From Stenotrophomonas hibiscicola ATCC 19867 (GTDB lineage Bacteria > Pseudomonadota > Gammaproteobacteria > Xanthomonadales > Xanthomonadaceae), in the NCBI RefSeq assembly GCF_000382065.1, contig NZ_KB907503.1, positions 184,682 to 248,681 on the forward strand: DNA of 64,000 bases, in the 5' to 3' direction. Position 1 is the first letter of the stretch; each line of letters begins with the position of its first letter. Below are positions 55,914-60,010 of the stretch, one piece after another. The notes under the pieces were generated by a model. It saw only the letters and a list, made by a program, of their open reading frames with translations. It did no database searches and had not been told where the DNA came from. The translations under genes were made by a program, and so were the position numbers.

Positions 55914-56441
55914 ATGCACACGTGGTACCTCGGTGGCATCGACCATCGCCCCTTCCTGCACCTGTTCGAGATGAGCGACTGCGCGCTCGCTGCGCTCGGC
56001 ATCCAGCGTCGCTGGGCCGGCGCCAACGGCGGGCATCCCTGCCGGATCAGCCTGAGCGATCCCGCGCCTGGCAGCGAGCTGCTCCTGCTGTCCCACGTCC
56101 ACCTGCCGCTGCATTCGCCGTACCGCGCCGCCGGCCCGATCTTCGTGCAGCGCGGCGTGACCCGTTGCGTCCTGCCGCCGGGCGAGGTACCCCCGTATGT
56201 GCAGCGCCGGGTGATCTCGATGCGTGCCTATGACCACGCCGCGCTGATGTGCGGTGCCCAGGTCTGTGCGGGCACCGAGGTGGCCGACCACCTGGATGCA
56301 CTGTTTGCCGACCCGTCGGTGGCGTTCGTCCAGCTGCACAACGCCGCGCATGGCTGTTTCTCGTGCCAGGCAGATCGGGTAGGTACCGGGACTGCGTCGC
56401 GTGATCTCCATGACGTGATCGATGCCACGCCGGTCACGTGA
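55914..56441 (+). CDS. DUF1203 family protein
   Basis: The 175-residue soluble protein shows the DUF1203 pattern: CRISLSDPAPGSELLLLSHVH, SPYRAAGPIFVQRG, RVISMRAYDHAALMC, and near the end AFVQLHNAAHGCFSCQADR. Conserved histidines and cysteines are present but no activity is known. It lies alone between the hydrolase and LPMO genes. A GTGAAGCC / GGCTTCAC hairpin at 56468-56492 follows it. Confidence 0.9.
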   Translation: MHTWYLGGIDHRPFLHLFEMSDCALAALGIQRRWAGANGGHPCRISLSDPAPGSELLLLSHVHLPLHSPYRAAGPIFVQRGVTRCVLPPGEVPPYVQRRVISMRAYDHAALMCGAQVCAGTEVADHLDALFADPSVAFVQLHNAAHGCFSCQADRVGTGTASRDLHDVIDATPVT

Positions 56442-56632
56442 CGTCCAGCGCATCCGTTCAGCCCTGCGTGAAGCCTGCGGGAAGGGCTTCACATGCGCAG
56501 TCACGGATCGGCACTGCGATGGTTCCGCCGCCTGCAGTGCGACTCGATACTCGCCCTGGTGCCGCCGAAAGTCCGCCGCCCAGCGCAGCGCCTGCGGTCA
56601 CCGTTCCCTTTCGACGACCACAAGGATGCGCC

Positions 56633-57805
56633 ATGTCATTCCGATCCACACCGCTGTTGCTGGCCACCTCGTTCGCCGCTGCGGGCCTGTGCCTGGCCGG
56701 CAACGCGTTCGCCCACGGCACGATGACCACGCCGGTCAGCCGCGTCTATGCCTGCTTCCAGGGCAATCCCGAGAATCCGACCAACCCGGCCTGTGCCGCT
56801 GCAAAAGCGATTGGCGGTTCACAGGCGTTCTACGACTGGAACGGCATCAACCAGGCCAACGCCAACGGCAACCATCAGGCCGTGGTGCCCGACGGCAAGC
56901 TGTGCAGCGGCAACAACCCGACCTTCCGCGGCCTGGACGTGAACCGCAGTGACTGGCAGACCACGCCGATCCACGCCGATGCCAATGGCAGGTTCACCTT
57001 CGTGTTCAAGGCAACCGCGCCGCACGCCACGCGCGACTGGCGCTTCTTCGTCACCCGCGACGGCTGGCAACCGGGCAGCCCGTTGCGCTGGGCCGACCTG
57101 CAGGAGTTCTGCACGCTGGGCAATACACCGCTCTCTGCCGATGGCACCTACAAGCTGCAGTGCACGCTGCCGCAGCGCAGCGGCCAGCATGTGATCTACA
57201 ACACCTGGCAGCGCTCGGATTCGACCGAGGCGTTCTACACCTGCATGGACGTGCGCTTTGAAGGCGGCGGCGGTGGTACGACGCCGGCACCGCAATGGCA
57301 GGATGCCGGCCCGGTCACCGCCCGCGGTGAATTGCCGGTCGGTACGACGCTGGCACTGCGCGTGTTCAATGCCAGCGGCAACGATGTCGAACGTGTGGAA
57401 GCGACGCTGGCCAGCGGCCAGACCTCGGCCGCGCAATGGCCCTTGGCGCTGGCCCGCAAGGTCAATGCCAGTGCCCAGCATGCGCGCGTGGGCGTGCTGG
57501 CCAATGGTGCAATCACGCCGACGGCCTCGGCCACCGCCAACCGCGTGTACCTGAAGGATGGCAACCGCTTCCAGCTCGACACGAAGGTGCCGGACCCGGG
57601 CACGCCGTCGCCGGGCGGTGATTTCGACCATGTGTACCCGGCCGGTATCGGCGGCTATGTGCCGGGCCAGACCGTGGTGAAGGGCACCGACGGCAAGCTG
57701 TACGCCTGCCGTCCGTTCCCGGAGGGTGCATGGTGCAACGTCAATGCCGAGGCCTACCGGCCGGGCGTGGGCGCGGCCTGGCGCGATGCGTGGATCGCGT
57801 ACTGA
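56633..57805 (+). CDS. Lytic polysaccharide monooxygenase AA10 with CBM5/12, copy 1
   Basis: The 390-residue secreted copper enzyme has a signal peptide ending ...GNAFA, so that His of AHGTMTTPVSR becomes residue 1 and half of the copper histidine brace. The second His is in KATAPHATRDWRFFVTRDGW. A linker domain of the GbpA-type (residues about 220-330) and a short C-terminal chitin-binding module follow (DGKLYACRPFPEGAWCN). It cleaves crystalline chitin or cellulose; chitin is most likely for this architecture. AAGGA before ATG is the ribosome binding site. Confidence 0.95.
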   Translation: MSFRSTPLLLATSFAAAGLCLAGNAFAHGTMTTPVSRVYACFQGNPENPTNPACAAAKAIGGSQAFYDWNGINQANANGNHQAVVPDGKLCSGNNPTFRGLDVNRSDWQTTPIHADANGRFTFVFKATAPHATRDWRFFVTRDGWQPGSPLRWADLQEFCTLGNTPLSADGTYKLQCTLPQRSGQHVIYNTWQRSDSTEAFYTCMDVRFEGGGGGTTPAPQWQDAGPVTARGELPVGTTLALRVFNASGNDVERVEATLASGQTSAAQWPLALARKVNASAQHARVGVLANGAITPTASATANRVYLKDGNRFQLDTKVPDPGTPSPGGDFDHVYPAGIGGYVPGQTVVKGTDGKLYACRPFPEGAWCNVNAEAYRPGVGAAWRDAWIAY

Positions 57806-57819
57806 GGCAGTGATGCGGG

Positions 57820-57844
57820 AGGCGGTGCACAATGCACCGCCTTT
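57820..57844 (+). terminator. Hairpin after the first LPMO gene
   Basis: AGGCGGTGCA / TGCACCGCCT with a CAA loop then TTT, 15 bases past the stop codon. It suggests the two LPMO genes have separate transcripts. Confidence 0.75.
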
Positions 57845-57941
57845 CGCCCGGATGACGGCAAAGTAAGCACCGTGTTGCAGATCGAACACAGCCGCCATCG
57901 ATTTCAAACTTGTCCGATGTTGCCGGCGCATCCGCATGTGA

Positions 57942-57979
57942 AGACTCCTTGAGGTTTCCCACACCTCGCAAAGGAGTCT
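57942..57979 (+). promoter_or_regulatory. Hairpin that buries the ribosome binding site of LPMO copy 2
   Basis: AGACTCCTT pairs with AAGGAGTCT and, directly inside, GAGGT pairs with ACCTC (loop TTCCCAC, small GCA bulge). The 3' arm contains AAGGAG at 57971-57976, seven bases before ATG 57984. All of the Shine-Dalgarno sequence is thus paired. This would hold translation low until heat, a protein or an RNA opens it. The first LPMO gene has no such structure. Confidence 0.8.
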
Positions 57980-57983
57980 CTGC

Positions 57984-59147
57984 ATGCACCTGTCCCATCG
58001 GGCAGTCTTCGCACTGTCCGTCGTCGCCGGCCTGGCCTTGTCCGGCAGCGCCTTCGCCCACGGCACCATGACCAAGCCGCTCAGCCGCGTGAAGCAGTGC
58101 CACGAGGGCAATCCGGAAAACCCGACCAACCCGGCCTGTGCCGCAGCCAAGGCCATTGGCGGCGCGCAGCCGTTCTACGACTGGAGCGCGATTGCCCACG
58201 GCAATGCCAATGGCAACCATCGCGAACTGGTGCGCGATGGCGAACTGTGCAGTGCCAGCATTCCCAAGTACCGCGGCCTTGACCTGAACCGTACCGACTG
58301 GCCGACCACACCAATCCGCGCCGACGCGCGTGGCCGCTACACCTTTGAGTTCTATGCCCCGGCCCCGCATGCCACCCGCGAGTGGAAGTTCTATGTCACC
58401 CGTGATGGCTGGCAGCCGGGCAGCCCGCTGCGCTGGGCCGACCTGCAGGAATTCTGCACACTGGGCAACGTGCCGGTGGACGGCAAGACCTACAAGTTGG
58501 ACTGCCCGCTGCCCAAGCGCAGTGGCCAGCACATCATCTACAACACCTGGCAGCGTTCGGATTCGGGTGAAGCGTTCTACACCTGCATGGATGTCCGCTT
58601 CGAAGGCGGCAACGGCGTGATTCCGCCGCCGCAGTGGCAGGATGCCGGCCCGGTCACCGCCCGCGGTGCGCTGGAGGCAGGCACCACGCTGACCCTGCGC
58701 GTGTTCAATGCCAACGGCAACGATCTGGAGCGCCCGGAAGTGACCCTGGCCGCCGGCCAGACCGCTCCGGCGCAGTGGCCGATGGCGCTGGCCAGCAAGG
58801 TCAATGGCAGCGCCCAGCACGCCCGCGTCGGCGTGATGAAGAACGGCGTGATCACGCCGGTGGCGTCCGCCACCGAGAACCGTGTCTACCTGAAGCCGGG
58901 TCATCGCTTTGAACTGGAAACCCAGATTCCGGGTCCGGGCCCGGTCGATCCGCCGGGTGGCGATTTCGACTTCGTGTATCCGGCAGGCCTCGGCAGCTAC
59001 AAGCCGGGCGAGACCGTGGTGAAGGGCACCGACGGCAAGCTGTACGCCTGCCGCCCGTTCCCGGAAGGTGCGTGGTGCAACATCAACGCCGATGCCTATC
59101 GCCCAGGCACCGGCTTTGCCTGGCGTGATGCCTGGATCGCGTACTGA
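57984..59147 (+). CDS. Lytic polysaccharide monooxygenase AA10 with CBM5/12, copy 2
   Basis: The 387-residue paralogue has the same order: signal peptide ending SAFA, catalytic domain starting HGTMTKPLSRVKQCH, the second copper His in APAPHATREWKFYV, then the GbpA-like linker domain and terminal chitin-binding module (KLYACRPFPEGAWCN). It differs from copy 1 mainly in residues 20-110 and in the linker (DPPGGDFDF). The tandem pair with intact copper sites suggests division of labour on chitin surfaces. Its translation is probably controlled by the hairpin just upstream. Confidence 0.95.
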   Translation: MHLSHRAVFALSVVAGLALSGSAFAHGTMTKPLSRVKQCHEGNPENPTNPACAAAKAIGGAQPFYDWSAIAHGNANGNHRELVRDGELCSASIPKYRGLDLNRTDWPTTPIRADARGRYTFEFYAPAPHATREWKFYVTRDGWQPGSPLRWADLQEFCTLGNVPVDGKTYKLDCPLPKRSGQHIIYNTWQRSDSGEAFYTCMDVRFEGGNGVIPPPQWQDAGPVTARGALEAGTTLTLRVFNANGNDLERPEVTLAAGQTAPAQWPMALASKVNGSAQHARVGVMKNGVITPVASATENRVYLKPGHRFELETQIPGPGPVDPPGGDFDFVYPAGLGSYKPGETVVKGTDGKLYACRPFPEGAWCNINADAYRPGTGFAWRDAWIAY

Positions 59148-59190
59148 GGCATGGCACCGGGGGCGGCGTGATGCCGCCTCCGATTTGCGG

Positions 59191-59254
59191 GATTGCCGGC
59201 CAGCGGCCGGCATTACCAAGGTTCGTGGGGTTGCCGGCCAGCGGCCGGCACTAC
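59191..59254. repeat. Direct pair of SMAG palindromes, GCCGGCC subtype
   Basis: Two near-identical members at 59191-59214 (ends ATTAC) and 59230-59254 (ends ACTAC) in the same orientation, between convergent genes. A weak hairpin (GGGGGCGGC / GCCGCCTCC, 59159-59181) precedes them. Confidence 0.8.
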
Positions 59255-59260
59255 CCTGGC

Positions 59261-60010
59261 TTACTTGCTGCTGACGTACTTCTCGCGGCGGATCTGCGGG
59301 TTGCCCAGGCCGGCGGCCTTCAGCAGCTCGGCGCAGGCATCGACCATGTCCGGGTTGCCGCACAGGTAGGCGATGTCGGTGGCCGGGTCCGGCGTGAAAC
59401 CGGCCAGCGCCTGCTGCACGTAGCCGTGCTGTACATCCGGGTGCGGTTCGGCCGGCAATTCGCGCGACAGGCACGGAACATAGCGGAAGTTCGCGTGCTT
59501 TTCGGCGAAGCTGTAGAAATCTTCGCTGTACAGCAGCTCGCCCGGGCTGCGCGCGCCCTGCAGCAGCACGATCTGCACATCGCGTTCGGCCATGGCCTTT
59601 TCCAGCAGCGGCAGCATGGAACGGTACGGGGTAACGCCGGTACCGGTGGCGATCAGCAGGTAACGGGCGTTGTGGTCACCGGGATTCAGGCAGAACCGGC
59701 CATAGGGGCCGGACGCACTGATCTGGCCGCCCGGCTCCAGTGCCTCGAACAGGGCCGTGGCAGCACCACCGGGCACGAAACTGACCGCGATATCCACCGC
59801 CTCGCCCGGGCCCAGCGCATGGTCGTGGATGGTCGCCAGCGAGTAGCTGCGCTTGGTTTCGGTGCCGTCGGCATAGCTGAAATGGACCTGGATGAACTGG
59901 CCGGGCTGGAAATCCAGTGGCTGTCCATCATCACGCACGAACTGGTAGTGGCCGACGGTCGGGGCCAGCATGCGGCAGCCGACCAGCTTGAGGGGGAATT
60001 GAACAGGCAC
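59261..60010 (-). CDS. fpr: Ferredoxin-NADP reductase
   Basis: The 249-residue flavoprotein moves electrons between NADPH and ferredoxin or flavodoxin. TKRSYSLATIH is the FAD motif (R-x-Y-S), GPYGRFCL follows, LIATGTGVTPYRSML is the pyridine nucleotide site and IAYLCGNPDMVDACAELL the NADP end. The C-terminal REKYVSSK is typical of the bacterial subclass. It is divergent from the YadG-like gene. Confidence 0.96.
   Translation of the reverse strand: MPVQFPLKLVGCRMLAPTVGHYQFVRDDGQPLDFQPGQFIQVHFSYADGTETKRSYSLATIHDHALGPGEAVDIAVSFVPGGAATALFEALEPGGQISASGPYGRFCLNPGDHNARYLLIATGTGVTPYRSMLPLLEKAMAERDVQIVLLQGARSPGELLYSEDFYSFAEKHANFRYVPCLSRELPAEPHPDVQHGYVQQALAGFTPDPATDIAYLCGNPDMVDACAELLKAAGLGNPQIRREKYVSSK

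Follow-up and report, generated by a model that had tools for sequence, protein, structure and literature searches.

The window, a 64,000-nucleotide stretch of the Stenotrophomonas hibiscicola ATCC 19867 genome, carries two neighboring LPMO genes; these genes and the hairpins around their starts and ends lie on its forward (+) strand. The upstream gene, LPMO1 (56633..57805), encodes 390 amino acids and the downstream gene, LPMO2 (57984..59147), encodes 387; domain matches assign LPMO_10 (AA10) and GbpA_2 (Pfam) to both products. In LPMO2, these domains follow an N-terminus that resembles a signal peptide when read by eye. LPMO2 is intact and under purifying selection, with a dN/dS of 0.10–0.19 against eight relatives. 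Sequence and folding place a GC-rich hairpin with a short U run 3′ of LPMO1 (57820..57842), possibly the terminator of that gene. If so, LPMO2 would perhaps be transcribed separately from its own promoter, as the arrangement suggests. A strict scan for terminators does not count this hairpin, and promoter prediction yielded no sigma-70-type call within 57700–58100. After LPMO2, two GC-rich palindromes (TTGCCGGCCAGCGGCCGGCA) can be read by eye at 59190–59255; they look like GTAG-type REP elements of S. maltophilia.

Similar LPMOs encoded side by side are usually explained from their proteins and not from their mRNAs. The initial annotation drew attention to the mRNA, describing a strong hairpin that buries an AAGGAG ribosome-binding site seven bases before the ATG of LPMO2. 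Folding reproduces this description: 57942–57955 pairs with 57963–57967 and 57971–57979 in 14 base pairs, and seven bases separate AAGGAG from the ATG at 57984. The Shine–Dalgarno (SD) helix joins a 5′ arm, AGACUCCUU (57942..57950; the anti-SD arm), to a 3′ arm (57971..57979) that holds the SD (AAGGAG, 57971–57976), whose predicted unpaired probability is 0.09 at 37 °C. The apical part (57951..57967) consists of a helix between 57951–57955 and 57963–57967 and the loop UUCCCAC (57956–57962), with a GCA bulge (57968–57970) on its 3′ side; the sequence and pairing of this helix vary in the folds of relatives. Seven outer pairs, which add to the original description, connect GCAUGUG (57934..57940) with 57981..57987 and bury the start codon (57984–57986), for which the unpaired probability is at most 0.003 at 37 °C in four transcript contexts. 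The predicted energy is −17.4 kcal/mol for the inner hairpin and −26.9 kcal/mol with the outer helix included. The fold of 57900–58040 has a z-score of −3.95, with 0 of 200 shuffles folding equally well, and the 64 kb contain a single exact copy of the inverted repeat ACTCCTT..AAGGAGT, against 0.00 expected.

Exposing the LPMO2 SD is predicted to cost 11.7 kcal/mol at 37 °C, and 11.7–14.0 kcal/mol across the four transcript contexts. The background was drawn from 464 kb of the source genome (twenty stretches plus the window) and consisted of 156 SD-bearing genes, chosen mechanically by at least 150 codons between stops, third-position GC above 0.75 and an SD match, with uncurated starts. Their opening costs have a median of 3.2, a 75th percentile of 4.8, a 95th percentile of 7.1 and a maximum of 13.6 kcal/mol, and only two genes, LPMO2 itself among them, reach 11.7 kcal/mol. 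LPMO2 ranks 4th by local stability and 19th by SD exposure, and it is the sole gene of the 156 that is equally extreme in both start-region stability and SD occlusion. When the upstream sequence was shuffled with the SD and coding part fixed, 0 of 300 shuffles attained its opening cost. Judged by these predicted energies, the hairpin is real, beyond chance and exceptional for the source genome. Such an extreme value, for the gene in its genome and against its own shuffles, argues against a neutral or nearly neutral structure that drifted into a GC-rich leader while ribosome standby, S1 or co-transcriptional loading rescues translation.

The upstream copy had been credited with a free AAGGA, a description that the folds contradict: the LPMO1 SD (AAGGA, 56622–56626) is just 27% unpaired and costs 4.9 kcal/mol to open, approximately the 75th percentile of the 156-gene sample. 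Folds and RNAalifold place a GGUC/GACC hairpin next to this SD (56591..56626). Since the LPMO1 SD is itself partly paired, the two copies differ by degree, at approximately 5 versus 12 kcal/mol. The LPMO1 leader is nearly invariant in 35 genomes: 64% of the columns are invariant in the last 50 bases before the ATG, and 24% of the third codon positions are invariant in the first 100 codons. Its RNAalifold consensus sets CCU opposite AGG, with no compensatory changes. Following the GGUC/GACC hairpin, the leader (56590–56635) reads ACAAGGATG in 26 of the 35 genomes and ACAAGGAAG in the other 9, a segment that resembles the CsrA/RsmA consensus; this likeness in sequence is a lead for LPMO1 only. 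A CsrA/RsmA target displays its GGA in a loop, and for LPMO2 the possibility was rejected, as the GGA of the SD lies inside the helix in the fold. A regulon defined by the LPMO1 leader motif was likewise rejected, the search returning one exact copy and 13 two-mismatch places, that is, 14 against 42 for the reversed pattern.

The initial annotation further suggested an RNA thermometer, in which rising temperature would melt the hairpin and expose the SD. The LPMO2 leader resembles the ROSE and fourU elements (PMC3669281 and PMC10586365) in holding the SD within a 5′ UTR stem. The ROSE genes of the former paper are small heat-shock genes, unlike LPMO2. Predicted opening between 20 °C and 42 °C is almost nil: the unpaired probability of the SD rises from 0.07 to 0.10 between 20 °C and 42 °C, with 0.09 at 37 °C. 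Over the same range the opening cost falls from 13.6 to 11.0 kcal/mol, and it still amounts to 10.0 kcal/mol at 50 °C. The E. coli ibpA and ibpB leaders are far less stable by the same method: between 20 °C and 47 °C the cost drops from 3.4 to 2.3 kcal/mol for ibpA and from 6.8–8.0 to 4.3 kcal/mol for ibpB. The energy method handles the non-canonical pairs of ROSE elements poorly. The ROSE_2 model gave no match in the source genome while matching in E. coli as a positive control; FourU also gave none, a weak negative, as the control genomes lacked matches too. The bases facing the SD are CUCCUU and not four consecutive U. A fourU element with an overall Tm of 69 °C still regulates, according to PMC10586365, so high stability alone is not final against a thermometer. 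The temperature evidence against one is thus strong but not final. A simple thermometer is unlikely on these predictions, and we consider that reading very improbable.

Conservation was examined between species, each species being represented by a single genome in the collections; the close relatives of the source genome are S. maltophilia, S. sepilia, S. geniculata and S. pavanii. A DNA search found the LPMO2 leader and the adjoining gene start in 27 of 91 Stenotrophomonas genomes. The covariance model built from 26 leaders returned, by construction, the same 27 genomes and no further genome at E 0.01; a second weak match in the genus lay in G035 (E 0.0099). Twenty-six leaders were compared, L010 being dropped as identical to L008 over the compared stretch, and 25 of the 26 rows of the alignment (A1) are distinct. 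Across these leaders, the predicted opening cost spans 3.7–11.7 kcal/mol. Twelve are strongly occluded (L004, L013, L016, L018–L024, L028 and L029), defined as an opening cost equalled or exceeded by at most 10 of the 156 sampled genes, and 10 of the 26 beat 95% of their own upstream shuffles. The SD pairing, with arms read by eye, takes several forms: AGACUCCUU/AAGGAGUCU in leaders of the L004 type, AGACUCCUC/GAGGAG-A-UCU in L019 and L020, AACUCC/GGAGUU in L018 and L021, and AACUCC/GGAG-A-UU in L022, L023, L028 and L029. Nine leaders (L005–L009, L011, L012, L014 and L015) carry a G at 57947, which forms a G–G mismatch with G57974 of the SD; seven of these cost 3.7–4.1 kcal/mol (sample median 3.2), L014 costs 5.5 and L011 costs 6.2.

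The anti-SD arm is the most conserved leader stretch upstream of the SD in this alignment. Ahead of the SD, the alignment has 46 columns upstream of 57970; seven are invariant, and five of these (57942, 57944, 57945, 57946 and 57948) fall inside the arm at 57942–57948 (hypergeometric 3e-4, for columns that are non-independent and a 7-nt arm picked after the structure was known). The share of alignment cells that pair is 72% for the window structure and 81% for a variant, against at most 54% with slid partners, and these shares were attained by 32 and 26 of 500 shuffles, respectively. The covariation score was attained by 473 and 467 of 500 shuffles for the two structures, and the count of pairs changed on both sides by 402 and 500 of 500. 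RNAalifold found no common structure in the 26-leader alignment, predicting zero pairs. The compensatory changes in relatives to which the initial annotation had looked are present in one coherent pair, 57943–57978, which is G–C in 9, G–U in 11 and A–U in 6 of the 26 leaders and broken in none when the inserted A of some leaders is read as a bulge (otherwise 18 of 18 lettered cells); overall, covariation shows no excess over shuffles, and nine leaders carry the mismatch. As the SD is fixed by its function, its helix has little room to covary. The compensatory evidence is weak in this alignment, and plain conservation of the anti-SD arm is the stronger signal. These patterns bear again on neutral drift. 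The wide variation of strength among relatives, the lack of excess covariation and the empty RNAalifold result fit such drift, whereas the best-conserved stretch of the leader upstream of the SD being the anti-SD arm, and the strong occlusion of L018, L019–L020, L023 and L029, scattered over the tree, speak against it. We regard neutrality as improbable.

A coding-sequence tree served to trace the distribution of hairpin strength. One well-supported group unites the window with L013, L014 and the L005–L009, L011 and L012 clade, and both strong and weak leaders occur in the remaining tree. With the line drawn at 7 kcal/mol, at least six changes are required, which implies that hairpin strength has shifted repeatedly. 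We infer an ancestral strong hairpin that later weakened in the L005 clade. The LPMO2 coding sequence of L015 groups with L016 and L018, yet its leader is of the L005 type; this mismatch in sequence suggests recombination between leader and gene.

A third LPMO class (start MQ..) occurs in other Stenotrophomonas (L034, L035, L042, L044, L048, L052 and L053), and its leaders share GGAGACT and TCCA with the LPMO2 leader. Read by eye, and partly in the folds, several of them could form a helix ahead of the SD, of which GUGUGGA/UCCACAC is one example. GGAGACU is kept in the seven leaders of this class, where the SD is not its partner in the folds seen, and conservation of the GAGACU motif may have a cause other than SD pairing.

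Taken together, the predicted energies, the conserved arm and the gene tree are consistent with a structural brake on LPMO2 translation. The LPMO2 mRNA would begin with a short leader folding into a stable hairpin, in which, on the joint indication of prediction and conservation, the conserved anti-SD arm pairs with the SD and the outer helix with the start codon. The 30S subunit would have to unfold this hairpin before starting translation, and given so large an unfolding cost, LPMO2 would be made sparingly relative to LPMO1, at a low basal rate. The brake would be a leader feature in Stenotrophomonas whose strength, from predicted energies and the gene tree, depends on lineage: it appears strongest in the window, L019 and L020 and relaxed around S. 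maltophilia NEC1, E301 and SJTL3. The hairpin would then set the translation rate structurally and not as a thermosensor. We attach about an even chance to this account as a whole, and the hairpin probably keeps LPMO2 scarce unless opened. The brake presupposes that the transcript starts upstream; were transcription to begin within the 5′ arm, the hairpin would be lost. As for the proposal that the two LPMOs are controlled differently, its core survives, since the LPMO2 start is predicted to be sequestered and differing translation is plausible, while the thermometer reading attached to it does not.

A leader structure over the SD has to be unfolded, at an energy cost, before the 30S subunit is accommodated (PMC9410914), and the structured RBS-sequestering 5′ UTRs covered there resemble LPMO2 in that the leader fold overlaps the SD. 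The ligand penalty given in that paper for a riboswitch, 1.4 kcal/mol, is far below the LPMO2 cost, a loose comparison between different quantities. From its predicted fold, the LPMO2 hairpin looks like a new case of a known control type, the leader hairpin that covers a ribosome-binding site. Among the titles listed from the open PMC literature, none concerns RNA control of Stenotrophomonas LPMOs; subscription papers mostly fall outside it, so this absence is unproven.

A brake may also be a gate. LPMO2 could be held off until an sRNA, an RNA-binding protein or another factor opens the hairpin for chitin use, and such a factor perhaps docks on the recurring UUCC(C)AC loop stretch. A cost of approximately 12 kcal/mol should almost silence LPMO2, yet purifying selection acts on the gene, a hint that the block is sometimes relieved. 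Chitin-related genes are under post-transcriptional control elsewhere. Vibrio cholerae gbpA is preceded by Vc1, a c-di-GMP class I riboswitch (PMC4744006), and the likeness lies in an RNA leader before the gene of a chitin/GlcNAc-binding protein, both LPMO1 and LPMO2 carrying GbpA_2. In Listeria, the sRNA LhrA represses chiA, a gene for breaking down chitin, by hindering ribosome recruitment (PMC3078929); that repression acts in trans, whereas the LPMO2 mRNA would cover its own SD, and both systems are chitin-related. The LPMO2 leader differs from that of Vibrio gbpA in being a single hairpin with no riboswitch match: cmscan of 56300–59400 up to E 5 returned five families, all below the gathering score and none a riboswitch, and the c-di-GMP riboswitch model (GEMM-I) had no match there up to the same E-value.

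Leaders of other LPMO classes also carry UUCC(C)AC-like stretches, but the majority of the seven M3 folds show the stretch paired and not looped. The pattern TTCCMC-N-AGGA-N-ATG occurs at 27 places in the source genome against 2 for its reverse, an excess that AGGA-N-ATG alone may explain, and LPMO2 itself does not match it. No opening factor was found, and an Rfam scan of 3,101 bases gave nothing above the gathering score. We treat the gate as a tentative possibility. The fuller proposal of a Stenotrophomonas-specific cis-regulatory element, combining the anti-SD hairpin and the UUCC(C)AC loop with a dedicated opening factor so that the two LPMOs are made in different conditions, seems to us doubtful.

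The near-perfect inverted repeat might instead act in DNA or in transcription, as an operator palindrome or as a terminator or attenuator. The arms of relatives are, however, bulged or mismatched while their register to the SD is kept, the repeat occurs once in the window, and the source genome contains no second full match to the leader. For a terminator, the stem lacks a following U tract, the SD helix being followed by CTGCATGC, and none was called on the + strand in 57700–58100. We find such an element hardly credible.

Three further candidates were set aside. An upstream ORF ending in the 5′ arm (ATG 57917 to TGA 57952, MLPAHPHVKTP) has no equivalent in the other leaders of the 26-leader set: relatives sharing the upstream ATG read past the stop at 57952, and L013 and L014 have ATA. 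A repeat or mobile hairpin was rejected, with no other full leader copy in the source genome and no exact match in viral contigs; the near-copies are three matches of 14–17 bases to 57922–57939, outside the SD helix. A wider regulon was sought with the covariance model, which gave nine places in the source genome up to E 10, none convincing besides LPMO2. The other matches were one at E 7e-4 that lies antisense within a coding sequence judged by eye to be malate-dehydrogenase-like, the reverse strand of the hairpin at E 0.04 and six at E 1.6–8.4.

If the braking account is true, duplicate LPMOs can be separated by translation, and ribosome-binding-site hairpins differ in strength among species. 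The wider understanding of translational control would stay unchanged. The leaders would offer a natural series, from 3.7 to 11.7 kcal/mol, for testing hairpin strength against output.

Occlusion of the SD across the whole LPMO family was rejected, the predicted cost being mostly ordinary in 39 leaders from Lysobacter and other distant genomes, a set that includes one Stenotrophomonas leader and in which L076 equals L077. Three of these (L070, L078 and L087) cost at least 7.8 kcal/mol, and no more than 13 of 200 shuffles attain their values. In a paralogous class of Lysobacter LPMOs (L072, L075, L084–L087, L130, L131 and L133), a hairpin whose end falls within or at the SD recurs, for example CUGUUGG..CCAUCGACAG; it is variable in sequence, and its predicted occlusion is modest. 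One record, L108, is titled Bacillus subtilis SK7B5 and encodes a Stenotrophomonas-like LPMO. Its contig (31,436) has the same size as contig C51 of the Stenotrophomonas genome G072, so the record is probably mislabelled or contaminated.
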